A stretch of DNA of 24,323 nt from positions 1 to 24,323 of IMG/VR virus record IMGVR_UViG_3300035187_002882, one strand, 5' to 3'. This document shows, in pieces, positions 1,177-7,122 of the stretch. The translations under genes were made by a program, and so were the position numbers. The notes under the pieces were generated by a model. The model worked only from the letters and a program-made list of their open reading frames with translations. It was not told the origin of the DNA and made no database searches. Every line of letters starts with the position of its first letter. Position 1 is the stretch's first letter. This DNA is from a virus.

Positions 1177-1184
1177 TATTTATC
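1177..1184 (-). promoter_or_regulatory. T4-type late promoter element (GATAAATA) overlapping a stop codon
   Basis: The minus-strand sequence TGATAAATA contains the TGA stop of the Ig-domain gene (1183-1185) fused to an ATAAATA late element. It probably serves the 122-aa gene, alone or together with the element at 1161-1167. Confidence 0.4.
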
Positions 1185-2025
1185 AGGTTCCAAAGGTTAG
1201 CGTTGCAGAACCATTGGAAATAACCTCTTCAGTTCCACCCTCAGATGTAACCTTTACTCTATACTTGTAACCATTAAGTGCAGTATCAGCTAGACCACTG
1301 TATGAAAGTGTAGCTGTAGCCATTCCCGAATATGTAACTCCAGAATCTAAAGATGCAGTAACATTTCTCCAGGTTGTTCCTGAAGCAGTTTGACGCTGCC
1401 ACTGATAGATAAGAGTTCCAGGAGTTCCTGTTGTTGTGGTGGTAAGTGTAAATGTTCCAGCACCACTTGAAGAAGTTGAATTGGCTGGCTGAACACTGAT
1501 AGTAACTGCAGAAGCAACGTCTGCAGCTGGATTATCAGAGTAATCTCCAGCAACTGCTGCAGTTGCTTTGACTACTGCAATACACTCTGATTTGTGTCTG
1601 GTCTTACCAGCAGCATCTGTATATGTCTTATATACCCACCAACCAGGAGAAGTGAGACCTCTGACTCTGTTTTCGTTTAAAGCTACCTCAGTAGTATCGA
1701 CAAAGATTAGTGAACCTACATTAGTATCACCACCTTTTACTACATACTCAGCAACTGCCTTTGGAGCTGTTCTGCGAATCGCATTTGCAGCAGTTACAGT
1801 TCCAGTAGATCCAGCATATGCTTTATGAAGCTCTAAGGAAGTAGCACTTGTGACTTCTCTTACAATATACTGAACACCAGATAGAGCAAGGATGTCTCCA
1901 GGTTCAATATAATCAGCAGTTGCAGTATTAGTGAAACTTCCAGTAGTAGTTACTGTAGCATCTCCGTTAACTACAGCAACGTTTGTTGCTAAAGCTTTAG
2001 CATCGATTTTTCCGAAAATTGCCAT
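1183..2025 (-). CDS. Virion structural protein with a C-terminal Ig-like domain (280 aa)
   Basis: The protein is rich in Thr, Ala, Val and Ser, typical of beta-rich phage decoration or fibre proteins. Residues about 1-165 look like a beta-rich particle-binding part. Residues about 172-280 carry an Ig-like pattern: YQWQ, then a Trp, a TLSYSG strand, and the YKYRVKVTSEGG strand that normally holds the second core position. Ig-like domains of this kind occur on phage surface proteins such as Hoc and tail proteins and are thought to bind carbohydrate or cell surfaces weakly. The gene stands alone between a terminator plus TATAAATA late promoter (upstream) and two late-type elements (downstream), which supports strong late expression. 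Whether it belongs to the capsid, neck or tail cannot be read from the sequence. Confidence 0.75.
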   Translation of the reverse strand: MAIFGKIDAKALATNVAVVNGDATVTTTGSFTNTATADYIEPGDILALSGVQYIVREVTSATSLELHKAYAGSTGTVTAANAIRRTAPKAVAEYVVKGGDTNVGSLIFVDTTEVALNENRVRGLTSPGWWVYKTYTDAAGKTRHKSECIAVVKATAAVAGDYSDNPAADVASAVTISVQPANSTSSSGAGTFTLTTTTTGTPGTLIYQWQRQTASGTTWRNVTASLDSGVTYSGMATATLSYSGLADTALNGYKYRVKVTSEGGTEEVISNGSATLTFGT

Positions 2026-2468: not shown

Positions 2469-3231
2469 ATTTTTCGTCTTCTTTCTTGAGCTTAACCTTC
2501 TTTTTCTTTAAAGAAGCATTATGTGCTTTAACATCGGGTCTCCAATCTTCTTCCCCAGGCTCATCTCTATCTTTATAGTGCCCAGAATAAGTTTGATATC
2601 TACCATAATATCTTTCGGAAACTTGTTCTGATTCCTCCGACATACCATGAAGGGTTTTCCCTCTGGTTAGCTTATCAATAGCATGAGCACTTCTTAGGGT
2701 CTTTTCTGCGTAATCAGCACCATCTCTCTTTGGTAATTTAGTTGTGCTGTATTTCGGACCTGTTTTCTTTTCACCTGGCTTACTAGTAGATCTCCACTCT
2801 CTCTCATGCTTTTTTTCTGCTGCTCTTTCTTGTGCAGCTAACTTTCTTAGTTCTTTTCTTTCTTCACTGCTCTCTTCAACATATTCAGTTTCTTCAAAAT
2901 GCTTGCTAGCTGCCTTGACCATATCACGATGTGCTTTGGTCTTTTTCATATCAGCAATAGCCTTTTCATTATTTTTTTGACGCTTGTTCATATCAGTTTC
3001 TAGATATGAATCGTCTTTCTTTGCTTCTTCAATTTTATCATCATGTGTGCTGCAGCCTTCATCTTCCTCCCCCTTTTCCTTTTTCTTGAGGGATGCTTTC
3101 GCTTTGGTTTTCATCTCTTCGATTAAACCTTTAATACTGTCTCTATAAGTTTCTTTCATGAGATCTTCTGTTTTAGGATTTACAACTACACGTTTAAATT
3201 GCTTTCTCTTGGTGCTGTTATTATTCTCCAT
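2464..3231 (-). CDS. Lysine/glutamate-rich low-complexity phage protein (255 aa)
   Basis: I do not recognise a domain. The protein is extremely hydrophilic, with long runs of Lys and Glu, predicted coiled-coil or disordered segments (residues about 25-160) and a basic tail (ASLKKKKVKLKKE). This is the composition of T4 internal head or scaffold-core proteins rather than of an enzyme. The ATG at 3231 is preferred to an upstream TTG at 3237. It overlaps the stop of the 549-aa gene by 11 bases, so the two are probably translated together from the late element at 4899-4905. A prohead-core or internal-protein role is inference. Confidence 0.75.
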   Translation of the reverse strand: MENNNSTKRKQFKRVVVNPKTEDLMKETYRDSIKGLIEEMKTKAKASLKKKEKGEEDEGCSTHDDKIEEAKKDDSYLETDMNKRQKNNEKAIADMKKTKAHRDMVKAASKHFEETEYVEESSEERKELRKLAAQERAAEKKHEREWRSTSKPGEKKTGPKYSTTKLPKRDGADYAEKTLRSAHAIDKLTRGKTLHGMSEESEQVSERYYGRYQTYSGHYKDRDEPGEEDWRPDVKAHNASLKKKKVKLKKEDEKS

Positions 3232-4870
3232 CTTCAATCCCCATTGCTTGACGCCAAGAATATGATTCTCTATTAAGTTGCTTCTTCTCAGAAGGAGTTA
3301 GAGCACCTCTCTGAGCACCTCTTGCTGCTTGCTTTGCTTTTACAGCAGGATCATTTGACTTGTGAGCATAACCATGGAGACCAGGAGATGATGATGTTGT
3401 CTTACGGAAGTCACCTCTTTGCTTTCTCGCAAGTTCTTGTCTCGCCTTTGCCTTCTTATCGTCACCATAGGTTGGTCTGTTCTCAAGTGCAGTTGCTCTA
3501 TCTGCAGACTTACCGCCACCAGTAGACTTAGCAATCTTATTACGAATAGGTGCTTCATCATATCCACGCTTTGCCATTGCAGTTGCTTCATCAATTTCAA
3601 ACTGCTCCTTAGCAATCTCACCCATTGCCTTTTGCTTACGCAGTTTCTTAGGATTCTTGGTTACTGAACCACCATATCCCTCTCCATCATATCCAGTATG
3701 ACCATAATCATCAGCACCTCTAGACCAATTTCTACGAGCTTGATCCATTTCACCTCTTGAACCGTAGCGATTACTTCCACTTGCTAGTCGATTCTGTCTG
3801 CTTGCGTGCTTTTCTGCTTCCTTTACTTTTTTGGTTTTCTCACCCCTTTGTGAATACTCACTTGCAGGTTTACGCATTCTACTAAGAGTCAGTTTACTCA
3901 TTGCAGATCTAGCATTTGGAGTTTGACCATAAGAACCCTCTGCTTCAGCAATTACATCATCATCAATTTCAAACTCTTCTTTGCGAGTTGTCATTGCTTT
4001 AGCAATCGCAGCACGGCGATTCTTTAGATACTTATCGTTCTTATCATTCTTCTTGCCATCATTATCAACGTCGGAATCTTCCTTACCTACAGCATCTAAA
4101 GCTTCTCCAAGCTTTCTACCACCTCTACGAGCAGTTAAGACTGCTGCAATTGCTGCCTTTCTTCTTTCTTCTTTAGTTCTTCCTGCTAGTTGAGCAGACT
4201 TCGAAGATTGGAAATCTTTGATTGCAGTTCCCATATCAGTTTTAGATGTAATCTTTTCATCTAAATGCTCTACTGATTCTTTGGGAACACAGTTGGGAAC
4301 ATCTCTACTACCTTTCTTTTTCATCCCAACCATTTCATATCCTTTCCAGCAAGGATCATCTTGCTTTCCTTTATTTCCAATATATTTTTTCTTTTCATCT
4401 AGCATCTGCTGATGTAGATCTTCAATATCAATTCCTTCCTGAACGCCAATTCCCATTGCTGCCTTGATGCCAAGGTCAGAAGGCTTTCTTGCAGACTTGT
4501 TGCCCTTCTTGTCTGTAATCATATAGCTACCATCAGATCTCTTACTGGTAACTACAACTTGCTGACCATTGTATTGATATACTCTACCAATATTTCTATC
4601 TTCAGTTTCTTCTCTCTTCTTCATCAACTTATCTTTTTCAACTGGAAATCCAGCATAACCTTCCATAGGCTCATCATACTGCTCCACTTCAGAATAAACT
4701 TTTAATGCAGCATCCTTTAATCTCTTTGTTGGAAGAGCTTGATTGTTAGCAATAAACTCAGAAAAGCTGATCTCTTCCATAAGACCAAGCTCAACCTGTC
4801 TGAGAATTTTTGTTTGCTCTTCAATAGAATAGCCAATTAATGAAGAGGCTAGGGAAAGTGAAAGACTCAT
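3221..4870 (-). CDS. Modular lysine-rich phage protein with a calcium-loop-like motif (549 aa)
   Basis: This large hydrophilic protein has several recognisable modules. Residues about 90-140 form a small beta unit (GRVYQYNGQQVVVTSKR onward). Residues 174-197 form a CWKGY...VPNCVP unit with two cysteines. Residues 267-276 read DVDNDGKKND, the DxDxDGxxxD spacing of calcium-binding loops. A repeat follows: KEEFEIDDD at 297-305 and KEQFEIDEA at 421-429. Residues 307-310 read IAEA, which matches the T4 prohead protease cleavage rule (Ile/Leu-x-Glu before Ala). The rest is Arg/Gly/Ser/Lys-rich and probably disordered. A late element lies 29 bases upstream. A virion or prohead-internal role is likely but not proven. 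Confidence 0.75.
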   Translation of the reverse strand: MSLSLSLASSLIGYSIEEQTKILRQVELGLMEEISFSEFIANNQALPTKRLKDAALKVYSEVEQYDEPMEGYAGFPVEKDKLMKKREETEDRNIGRVYQYNGQQVVVTSKRSDGSYMITDKKGNKSARKPSDLGIKAAMGIGVQEGIDIEDLHQQMLDEKKKYIGNKGKQDDPCWKGYEMVGMKKKGSRDVPNCVPKESVEHLDEKITSKTDMGTAIKDFQSSKSAQLAGRTKEERRKAAIAAVLTARRGGRKLGEALDAVGKEDSDVDNDGKKNDKNDKYLKNRRAAIAKAMTTRKEEFEIDDDVIAEAEGSYGQTPNARSAMSKLTLSRMRKPASEYSQRGEKTKKVKEAEKHASRQNRLASGSNRYGSRGEMDQARRNWSRGADDYGHTGYDGEGYGGSVTKNPKKLRKQKAMGEIAKEQFEIDEATAMAKRGYDEAPIRNKIAKSTGGGKSADRATALENRPTYGDDKKAKARQELARKQRGDFRKTTSSSPGLHGYAHKSNDPAVKAKQAARGAQRGALTPSEKKQLNRESYSWRQAMGIEDGE

Positions 4871-4897: not shown

Positions 4898-5929
4898 CTA
4901 TTTATTTTTTCTAAACTCTGAGAATTTTACAACAGGTTGCCCTGGTGTCATTTTTTGAACATCCTCTCTATACTTATCGCCTCCAACATACCAATTATTT
5001 CCTGTCGATGATTGATCTGCAGACTCTTTCTTATTTACTTCATTCAATGAAGTAAGCCAAGCTCTATGAGAATTATTATCCTGATCAACAAAAATCAAAT
5101 AGTTGGTTCCTCTGTGTAATACTTCTCCTCTAATTCCAGTATCCATGTGCTCAACAATGGCACCAATCTTATAGATATTTTCTAGAATATAGTGATGGCG
5201 TAGTGTTTCATAATCTAAGCTAGGAGCAATCTCCCATACTTCATGAATTGATTCGACCTTTTTCTTTTTGGCAGCAGGCTTCTTTTTCTCTTCTTTCTTA
5301 GCCATTGCTGCCTGAACATCTTGCATTAATTTTTTCGAATGCTCTGGATCTGTTCCTTTTGGCATCCCAGTATGAAAGCTTTCATGATCATCTTTTTGAG
5401 CATGTAATCTTTGCTTAGATGCAGAAAGTGTTTCAATCGGATCCGTCGATTCTTCATCTCGGGCTCCTGCAGATTGAACATCAATCTTTTTAATATTTGG
5501 ATACTTATCTTTATACTTGTCGAATAAAGATTGGAACTCTTCTACACGATCGTCACCTACTACCATCTTTACATGAGTATGTCCCTCATCGTGTAGACTT
5601 GACATAATATCAAACACATTTCTGTGCTCTCCAGTAGTATCAATTTTATCCGCATGTTTTGGAAACAAATTCTGCATATGCGTAACCTTAGTCTTATGAT
5701 CTAAGGGATTCTTTTTTGCGTCTTGTGATGGGCTAGCATAAACTCTATAGTTCTTACAAGCTTTACCACAAGAATCTAAAAGTTTACCATGACCAGCATG
5801 TGGAGGATTGAATCTTCCAAAGGTAAAAGCAATTTCCTTTTTCTCGGTAGGTTTTTTGGGGGCAGCTTGACCAGTTGTGGCTTTCTTTAAAGTCTCTACT
5901 GCTTCAAGAATAAATTGCCTAAATTTCAT
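4898..5929 (-). CDS. HIGH-motif nucleotidyltransferase (cytidylyltransferase/NMNAT-like), 343 aa
   Basis: Residues 34-50 read AFTFGRFNPPHAGHGKL, the nucleotide-binding signature of the cytidylyltransferase superfamily (HxGH, H44-H47). SASKQR at 169-174 fits the second, C-terminal signature. Family members transfer a nucleotide to a phosphorylated substrate (NMN, phosphopantetheine, glycerol- or choline-phosphate); the substrate here is unknown. A lysine-rich linker (residues 211-226) leads to a C-terminal beta domain (about 250-298). The first ten residues, MKFRQFILEA, resemble the T4 capsid-targeting peptide with a gp21-type site after ILE. ATG 5929 overlaps the stop of the ligase-like gene as ATGA and is preferred to TTG 5938. 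The TAG stop lies at the edge of an ATAAATA late element. Confidence 0.8.
   Translation of the reverse strand: MKFRQFILEAVETLKKATTGQAAPKKPTEKKEIAFTFGRFNPPHAGHGKLLDSCGKACKNYRVYASPSQDAKKNPLDHKTKVTHMQNLFPKHADKIDTTGEHRNVFDIMSSLHDEGHTHVKMVVGDDRVEEFQSLFDKYKDKYPNIKKIDVQSAGARDEESTDPIETLSASKQRLHAQKDDHESFHTGMPKGTDPEHSKKLMQDVQAAMAKKEEKKKPAAKKKKVESIHEVWEIAPSLDYETLRHHYILENIYKIGAIVEHMDTGIRGEVLHRGTNYLIFVDQDNNSHRAWLTSLNEVNKKESADQSSTGNNWYVGGDKYREDVQKMTPGQPVVKFSEFRKNK
4899..4905 (-). promoter_or_regulatory. T4-type late promoter element (ATAAATA) abutting a stop codon
   Basis: The minus strand reads AAAAATAAATAGTA, where the final TAG is the stop codon (4898-4900) of the nucleotidyltransferase gene. It lies 29 bases before the ATG of the 549-aa gene and matches the ATAAATA late core. 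Confidence 0.5.
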
Positions 5930-7122
5930 TTTTTCCAATCCTTAGCTACTGTAAAATTTGCTCTAGAAAATTCAAGTCTGTCTACAAGTTTCATTGCCAT
6001 CCCATCTTTAATTGCAACAAATCCTTCTGGAGAAGTCGCACGGTATCCATTTTCATCCTCTAAAAATGTTCCCACACCTTCAATCTTCTTAAGCTTATTG
6101 ATAAGCTGAATTTTTGCAGCCATCAAATTTTTAAATCCAGATAGTGCTGCAAACATAGTAGATTTATTACTATTTAGAAATTTGAGAGAATCTGCACGTT
6201 TCTTTTCCCACTCTAGTTTAGCTTTTTCTGTTTTCTTTTTGGTGATTTCTGCCTTATATCTTGCCTCAACAAAGGAAGCAAAGCCAGCAGCCATTGCACT
6301 AGAATTACTAGGAATGACTCCCTTTTTAATTACATCGTTGAAGTAAATTTTAAATAAGGCTGCATAGTCAAATGACTTTGTGCCCCCGCCAATAATATCC
6401 AGAAATGGTTTTCCCTGCTTTAAGTTTCTTTCAGCAACAGTAATGCTATTGTTGAGTTTTGCTTTTTCAGTTGTGCTCAAATTAGCTGCACCCCCAACAT
6501 TTTGGAATGTTGCAGAGAATACAGCAACTTTAGAATATCCCTGATATGGAGATACATCAACACCAAACCCAGCATTCATAGTTGCCATACTAGTTCCAGT
6601 ATAGTGAGTATGAAATACAATACCCATTTCACTATTGCCTACTTTTTTACCAAGCTCCGTATTTGCGTCAACACAATAAGTAATTGTGTTTGGTCTAAAT
6701 CTATAGCAATCTTTACCCCCCATCTTTGCTAACGGAGGGGTTTGAGTATATAAAAGATCTCCTTGAATTACTCCTTTAATTCCAAGCTTGGATAAATGTG
6801 CTAAACACATCTTTAATTTATCTTTAATTGGATGATCTCCATACCAAAGATCTATGTCTGCATCATCGTAGCATATCTTCGGTTCAGTTTTTGCAAAAAC
6901 AGATTTCGTGCCAACAAAGAAAAATCCTGTTTCAGGATCAGTTCCACAAAAAATAGCAGGGGCGCCATCCCATTTAACAGTTACTTTCGTTCCTGTTCCA
7001 TTTCCATTTTCAGTAAGCATATCTCGAAGAGACTTTAAAAATGTCAATGCATTCTGAGCACCAGCATATCCATTATTAAAGATGTCATCTTCTAAGTGTT
7101 CTAGGTGAGTGTTTTTTGCCAT
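5926..7122 (-). CDS. Predicted covalent nucleotidyltransferase (DNA/RNA ligase-like), 398 aa
   Basis: The sequence shows ligase-superfamily motifs in order. Motif I is KWDGAPAI (K50, D52, G53; K50 would be the AMP-accepting lysine). A motif III-like strand is FFFVGTKS (67-74). Motif IIIa is VIQGDLLYT (118-126). Motif IV is EGFVAIK (366-372). Motif V is MKLV (377-380). ATP-dependent ligases and capping enzymes use these to form a lysyl-AMP/GMP intermediate. The spacing between IIIa and IV (about 240 residues) is much larger than usual and holds a separate region with a charged coiled coil (about 288-320). I recall no experimental study of this phage family. The ATG at 7122 overlaps the upstream stop (TAATG), and the stop overlaps the HIGH-motif gene (ATGA), so both enzymes are probably made together. 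Confidence 0.65.
   Translation of the reverse strand: MAKNTHLEHLEDDIFNNGYAGAQNALTFLKSLRDMLTENGNGTGTKVTVKWDGAPAIFCGTDPETGFFFVGTKSVFAKTEPKICYDDADIDLWYGDHPIKDKLKMCLAHLSKLGIKGVIQGDLLYTQTPPLAKMGGKDCYRFRPNTITYCVDANTELGKKVGNSEMGIVFHTHYTGTSMATMNAGFGVDVSPYQGYSKVAVFSATFQNVGGAANLSTTEKAKLNNSITVAERNLKQGKPFLDIIGGGTKSFDYAALFKIYFNDVIKKGVIPSNSSAMAAGFASFVEARYKAEITKKKTEKAKLEWEKKRADSLKFLNSNKSTMFAALSGFKNLMAAKIQLINKLKKIEGVGTFLEDENGYRATSPEGFVAIKDGMAMKLVDRLEFSRANFTVAKDWKK

Follow-up and report, generated by a model that had tools for sequence, protein, structure and literature searches.

A probable T4-like capsid-targeting decamer on a nucleotidylyltransferase of a Kyanoviridae-like phage, and candidate bearers of the same tag in other T4-like phages

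The locus and its enzyme

The window, i.e. the whole IMG/VR fragment of 24,323 bases analysed here, carries T4-like replication genes together with small head-related genes, and comes from a phage of the T4-like (Kyanoviridae-like) type. Among isolates, the cyanophages P-TIM40, S-SZBM1, S-WAM1 and P-RSM6 of the Kyanoviridae are nearest (53.5-50% protein identity; 53% for S-SZBM1_140), and all of them share the gene order around the gene considered here, a minus-strand open reading frame of 343 amino acids with its ATG at 5929-5927, its last codon at 4901-4903 and its stop at 4898-4900 (Table 1). We accept this start because the ATG overlaps the TGA stop of DUF6267, the gene upstream, as ATGA and because homologues align from the ATG at 5929; a wrong start codon was rejected on the same grounds, and the upstream TTG would add only MEK. 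None of gp21, gp22 and gp23 is encoded on the 24-kb fragment, and a gp21-type prohead protease and the gp22/gp23 core are annotated in the relatives P-TIM40, S-SZBM1 and S-SCSM1.

Table 1. Positions of the gene, its parts and its neighbours in the window
Feature	Positions	Strand	Basis
Whole gene, HIGH-type nucleotidylyltransferase (phrog_395, PF01467)	4901..5929	-	translation, profile matches
N-terminal decamer MKFRQFILEA, putative T4-type capsid-targeting sequence; predicted prohead-protease cut after Glu9 (bases 5903/5902)	5900..5929	-	
Linker, variable and low-complexity, residues 11-30, pLDDT ~60 or lower	5840..5899	-	alignment, model
Nucleotidylyltransferase fold, residues 31-213	5291..5839	-	model and structural matches
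GRFNPPHAGH, (H/T)xGH active-site motif, residues 38-47	5789..5818	-	sequence, alignment
SASKQR, second catalytic-type motif SxSxxR, residues 169-174	5408..5425	-	sequence, alignment
C-terminal module, small, five-stranded (VEHMDTGIRGEVLHRGTNYLIF...AWLTSLNE), residues 256-298	5036..5164	-	
C-terminal tail, conserved, WYVGGDKYREDVQKMTPGQ...KFSEF, residues 313-343	4901..4993	-	alignment
DUF6267, upstream neighbour; ligase-like motifs KWDGAP, EGFVAIK	5926..7122	-	
Downstream neighbour (P0002); orthologue S-SZBM1_139 was detected in virions	3221..4870	-	
Head-protein gene (phrog_613); relative S-SZBM1_136 was detected in virions	1183..2025	-	

Three of the surrounding frames deserve a remark of their own. 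In the DUF6267 protein the ligase-type KWDGAP lies near the start, and EGFVAIK lies near the end together with KLVDRLEFS. P0002 contains the repeat DxDNDGKKNDKxDKYLxxRRxAIxKAM, possibly a head-internal module, which also occurs in S-SCSM1_92 (a virion protein), P-RSM6_40, MED4-213_178, ACG-2014e_155 and S-PM2. At 417-779 on the minus strand, a frame of 120 amino acids matches phrog_696, 'major head protein' (2.7e-23), and is far too short for a major capsid protein.

The product firmly belongs to the HIGH nucleotidylyltransferase superfamily. It scores above the cut-off of Pfam CTP_transf_like (PF01467; 23.7 bits against 21), it possesses both GRFNPPHAGH and SASKQR, which bears out the HIGH-motif enzyme proposed in the first-pass annotation, and its AlphaFold model (mean pLDDT 84.5) displays a Rossmann-like nucleotidylyltransferase domain, with the small beta module and the conserved tail lying C-terminal to it and a Lys-rich linker at residues 214-230. 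The nearest solved structures are those of PPAT, NadM, NadD and NMNAT (Z 13.7-12.3, a spread of ~1.5; rmsd ~3-5, ~155 residues aligned), PPAT (Z 13.7) being marginally ahead of the other three (12-13). NadM, NadD, NadR and PPAT (CoaD) share with the window enzyme the fold, (H/T)xGH and SxSxxR, but structural-alignment identity amounts to ~9-15% and the window enzyme has the extra C-terminal module and tail. Both motifs are kept across an alignment of 63 orthologues, in which G46, H47, S169, S171 and R174 are invariant at identities down to ~35%, and this invariance argues that catalysis or ligand binding has been retained.

As to the substrate, the pyridine-nucleotide adenylyltransferase profiles of NCBIfam match most of the members, albeit all weakly (TIGR00482 in 58 and NadR in 54 of the 63). 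The window protein itself falls short of the NMNAT cut-offs (17.8 versus 112 bits for TIGR00482, 20.7 versus 341 bits for TIGR01526), and membership among the NMN/NaMN adenylyltransferases (NadD/NadM/NadR) was not accepted, as the curated models score far below their cut-offs; a profile search of PDB sequences returned weak matches alone (E ~0.1). We weakly infer a pyridine mononucleotide as the substrate, and would put an NAD-type adenylyltransferase activity at about an even chance. NAD as a target of the enzyme, which had been suggested earlier, is plausible as one among several options.

The decamer and its conservation

The product begins with MKFRQFILEA, followed by VETLKK. The capsid-targeting tag of T4 is textbook knowledge; the T4 proteins that bear it are internal head proteins, and these vary among T-even phages. 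The first-pass annotation had likened the decamer to this tag, and the comparison is correct because IPII and IPIII indeed begin with MKTYQEFIAEA in the T4 record (NC_000866). The window decamer has one residue fewer between K2 and the first aromatic, such that its F3, F6, I7 and E9 correspond to T4 positions 4, 7, 8 and 10, of which, in IPIII, residues 4 and 7 mainly serve targeting and residues 8 and 10 processing (review, PMC9026906). As in IPI, IPII and IPIII (MKTYQEFIAE/A; aromatics at 4 and 7, I/L at 8, E at 10, A at 11), the signal is short and lies at the extreme N-terminus, and a T4-type prohead protease is present in relatives of the window phage; the differences are that the T4 tag sits on small basic cargo, whereas here it precedes a 343-residue enzyme, that it is one residue shorter after K2, and that the phage is Kyanoviridae-like. 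The proposed prohead-protease rule before Ala likewise stands, as FILE/A fits (L/I)-x-E plus a small residue, and gp23 of P-TIM40, S-SZBM1 and S-SCSM1 has a matching [LI]xE/A site (LTE/A or LAE/A).

A scan of IMG/VR with the single window protein returned near-identical copies alone, and conservation was assessed in a set of 80 diverse long-form IMG/VR orthologues. The motif opens the protein in 79 of them, 74 being recognized by a strict regular expression and five by inspection (MKLSQFLSEA or MKLSQFLTEA in three, MKTFFSFLTEV, MKKFSQFILEF); the remaining one, L088, has no recognisable tag. The alignment of N-termini that had been called for thus favours the claim, F6, E9 and A10 being at least 90% conserved in the 63-sequence alignment. 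Among 52 distinct N-termini, in T4 numbering, position 10 is E in all 52, position 8 is I or L in 50 and position 11 is A in 48, positions 5, 6 and 9 are variable, and positions 4 and 7 served as the alignment anchor, which 88 of 89 sequences fitted. The residues conserved in these putative orthologue tags are the ones mapped by mutation in T4 (4, 7, 8 and 10). The linker between tag and enzyme varies from 20 to 125 residues, and distant orthologues have kept the tag in front of 80-125 residues that are otherwise different.

A relaxed regular expression, applied to all reading frames of the loci, gave 84 matches, of which 81 were orthologues and three came from two further tagged families; for scale, a slightly later locus set contains ~11,000 Met positions followed by 60 or more amino acids. 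A degenerate DNA pattern of the tag matched the whole T4 genome twice, in ipII and ipIII, and its reversed control did not match that genome at all; in 18 phage records a broader pattern gave 17 matches against 0 for the reversed control. Chance resemblance was ruled out by the orthologue conservation and the reversed-pattern control.

The tag is nevertheless not universal in the enzyme family, a candidate generalization that was rejected because it is missing from the short-form clade, from two jumbo-phage homologues and from S-PM2. Short-form enzymes (~187 amino acids; ACG-2014e, MED4-213) have neither the tag nor the C-terminal module, and none of 80 short-form IMG/VR loci has the tag (all are at least 83% identical and so represent one lineage). 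It follows that tag and module travel together, and that the enzyme family can do without packaging into the head. In the short-form phages the module either has a small gene to itself or is fused with the protein that comes next, which is related to the virion-type neighbour. This module, G-x-VE...TG..G.(V/I).HRGxNYV...W(L/I), thus has three contexts, namely the C-terminus of the tagged enzyme (window 5036-5164), alone as 85 amino acids (phrog_4808), and the N-terminus of a virion-type protein (the further instances are L129:3034-3288, L128:2073-3380 and L135).

Virion proteomes and the proposed delivery of the enzyme

The suggestion that the enzyme is packed in the head finds support in proteomes of purified virions, which contain its orthologues in at least four cyanophages (PMC9146016, PMC9602691, PMC10665884, PMC3037559). 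Known there as a 'cytidylyltransferase/NMNAT-like' virion protein (T4-GC190), the orthologue was found in S-SZBM1 (S-SZBM1_140, MRFRQFIIEA) with 2 peptides, alongside its neighbour 139, gp21 and gp22 (PMC9146016), is listed for S-SCSM1 (ORF91, MKSFLQFLKEA; PMC9602691), was found in S-CREM2 (ORF154, MKNFSSFLTEA) with 3 peptides (PMC10665884), and is present in S-SM1 (MKKFSAFLNEA; PMC3037559). The tag probably explains why these relatives of the window enzyme occur inside purified particles. In S-PM2, where the enzyme has no tag and is attached to the end of DUF6267 as a fusion, the gene is encoded and the protein was not detected in virions; this single negative case, from a shallow proteome in which several known structural proteins were missed too (PMC3037559), is suggestive only. 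The enzyme is also tagged in S-CREM1 and is not named among the 14 virion proteins in the S-CREM1 paper, and the small tagged proteins S-SZBM1_191, S-SZBM1_192 and S-SCSM1_30 are not reported as virion-detected.

As the best explanation overall we strongly favour a tagged internal head enzyme that would be docked, trimmed and delivered, and would act as a pyridine-mononucleotide adenylyltransferase. During prohead assembly of this T4-like, cyanophage-type phage the decamer MKFRQFILE/A would dock the enzyme onto the gp22-type scaffold core; a gp21-type prohead protease would then cut after Glu9, and the mature enzyme, starting at Ala10, would stay in the head, enter the host with the DNA on ejection and act in the first minutes of infection. 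Its action would be of the adenylyltransferase type, most probably on NMN or NaMN to give NAD, with the outcome that the NAD pool is supported or protected. The individual steps merit different degrees of confidence: packaging by the tag is well supported and highly probable, trimming after Glu9 is, by analogy, very likely, delivery into the host would on the same T4 precedent be likely, and docking on the scaffold is taken over from T4.

Several other readings can be weighed against this one. Residues 3-15 are helical in the AlphaFold model (pLDDT 78 over residues 1-10) and short amphipathic helices are common, so that the decamer could belong to the enzyme fold as its N-terminal helix, or be a helix for dimerisation or membrane binding, its likeness to T4 being convergent. 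However, it precedes a linker of variable length, is absent from short-form enzymes bearing the same family signature, recurs on unrelated proteins with nothing else in common, and is conserved at the T4-mapped positions, including a Glu-Ala/Ser junction for which a helix has no need, all of which renders this reading barely credible. It is also improbable that the enzyme is not specifically packaged and, being abundant in lysates, merely sticks to particles, with the tag serving sorting to replication sites or stability. The S-CREM2 authors do caution against carry-over of abundant proteins (PMC10665884), and the peptide counts given above for S-SZBM1 and S-CREM2 are low; nonetheless, the enzyme recurs in four proteomes, the S-SZBM1 virion list is devoid of other replication and metabolism enzymes (PMC9146016), and the untagged S-PM2 protein went undetected, subject to the shallowness of that older proteome. 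The internal head location of the T4 proteins that bear the tag also speaks against mere adherence.

Two further alternatives accept that the enzyme is packaged. One assigns it a structural or DNA-condensing role in the head, the fold being a relic, and may draw on the resemblance of its Lys-rich linker (residues 214-230) to basic internal proteins and on the fact that its neighbours are virion proteins; yet the five invariant residues of the 63-sequence alignment make such a relic a slim prospect. The other retains catalysis with a different substrate, namely pantetheine-phosphate, glycerol-phosphate plus CTP, FMN, or an RNA or nucleotide end handled with the ligase-like DUF6267. It is consistent with PPAT heading the structural matches and with the enzyme adjoining DUF6267, to which it is fused in S-PM2, whereas most of the profile matches among members, all of them weak, are to pyridine-nucleotide adenylyltransferases; we consider it a serious contender with somewhat less than an even chance.

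If the favoured reading of a tagged and delivered adenylyltransferase extends to NMN or NaMN, the enzyme would resemble NARP1 (Adps + Namat) in its aim, i.e. NAD being available in the infected cell, but Namat is a NAMPT-like transferase and not a HIGH enzyme; no partner gene of the NARP1 kind was identified for the window enzyme. An enzyme making NAD would exemplify a metabolic or counter-defence enzyme delivered ahead of phage gene expression. Another parallel is offered by T4 Alt, an ADP-ribosyltransferase that is packaged and then delivered at infection. Alt too is packed into the head and has an N-terminal propeptide (PMC9026906), but it is unrelated as an enzyme, and the tag pattern matches ipII and ipIII in T4, not Alt.

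Both the T4 tag and the cyanophage virion enzyme were already known, and it is the joining of the two, drawn from sequence comparison, that is seemingly new. The papers on the virion enzyme report, in their available parts, its presence in virions and not the tag, its cleavage site or its spread, and in the literature searched, mostly outside subscription journals, there was no report joining the virion enzyme with the tag or describing the tag in cyanophages. A nucleotidylyltransferase in cyanophage virions has been known since 2010 with its entry route unexplained, and the tag would supply one; it also ties a Kyanoviridae-type gene to a T4 mechanism and names the residues to mutate. We therefore regard the gene as encoding a further putative tagged internal head protein, the wider spread of the tag being an unproven claim.

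Candidate bearers of the tag beyond the enzyme

The search for the same decamer on other proteins of related phages, proposed at the outset, was productive. S-SZBM1_191 begins with MKSFKSFLSES and S-SZBM1_192 with MKTFKQYITEA, and many further cases occur in other T4-like phages; in the phage records the matches beyond the enzyme include S-SZBM1_191-like proteins (phrog_1742), a Cys-rich DUF6321 protein and a small basic protein, among others. A strict scan of P-TIM40 revealed no second convincing tagged gene, and the 24-kb window holds no decamer beyond that of the tagged gene.

In IMG/VR a strict DNA pattern (MK[ST]FKQ[FY]hxE) matched at least 120 stretches, against a chance expectation of ~0.2 in 10^11 positions at 38% GC, the size of the collection being assumed. 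Among the matches listed, 80 loci contain 92 tagged frames, in 83 of which the Met is the first ATG of the frame, and a purine-rich site precedes 53 of the 92 as compared with 18% of all ATGs. These listed frames fall into ~45 clusters that have no similarity besides the tag, including adenylate kinase (2.8e-43), DUF6267 (1.2e-96), GNAT (3.8e-9), DPBB/RlpA-type (3e-12), glucosaminidase (3.8e-13), HAD-type phosphatase (5e-6) and phage lysozyme (5e-6) and, with weaker profile matches, ART-like and phospholipase-A2-like proteins. Conservation in the matches listed breaks off sharply past residue 11 and synonymous codons vary, and these two features alone are informative since the search pattern itself partly determined residues 2, 4-7 and 10. 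This break, and the 83 DNA versions that encode the 49 peptides of the 92 listed frames, led us to reject a repeat at the DNA level or a recombining start region. Of the contigs above 30 kb among the matches listed, 13 of 24 carry gp23 and 12 of 24 a T4-type prohead protease, all three listed contigs above 100 kb being included.

This distribution has the look that would be expected of a head-packaging tag. We consider it rather probable that, in environmental T4-like phages, M[KR]x[FY]xx[FY][ILMF]xE[ASG] serves generally as a modular tag for packaging into the head, and that varied cargo, namely adenylate kinases, acetyltransferases, phosphatases, lytic enzymes, DUF6267, ART-like and metallopeptidase-like proteins and nucleotidylyltransferases, would be carried in the head and delivered together with the DNA. 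A tag this short and specific turns the question of what protein cargo a T4-like phage injects along with its DNA into a sequence search, for which one strict scan has already provided the candidate places counted above; were the general tag true, virion-delivered effectors could be listed directly from sequence.

Several minor observations accompany these results. Unrelated tagged genes can be adjacent, two or three in a row and cassette-like (L276:6754-8317, L292:670-3897, L224:6302-7389). The DUF6267 protein of the IMG/VR contig L223 has a capsid-targeting decamer of its own, MKSFKQYLSEA. A tagged protein at L264:1723-2589 has an ADP-ribosyltransferase-type match (4.8e-4, below the cut-off), the packaged Alt of T4 being an ADP-ribosyltransferase as well. 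A zincin-like protein of 123 amino acids (HELVHYHQ) with the tag-like start MRFREFLNES, encoded at L123:1501 on the minus strand of IMGVR_UViG_3300047557_002951, is a possible head-delivered metallopeptidase. Finally, two small virion proteins, L103 (S-SCSM1_97) and L102 (S-CREM2 gp160), share with gp23 the N-terminal peptide GFxGxxxAxGPxAG(Y/F)DPLM, a mimicry-like resemblance.
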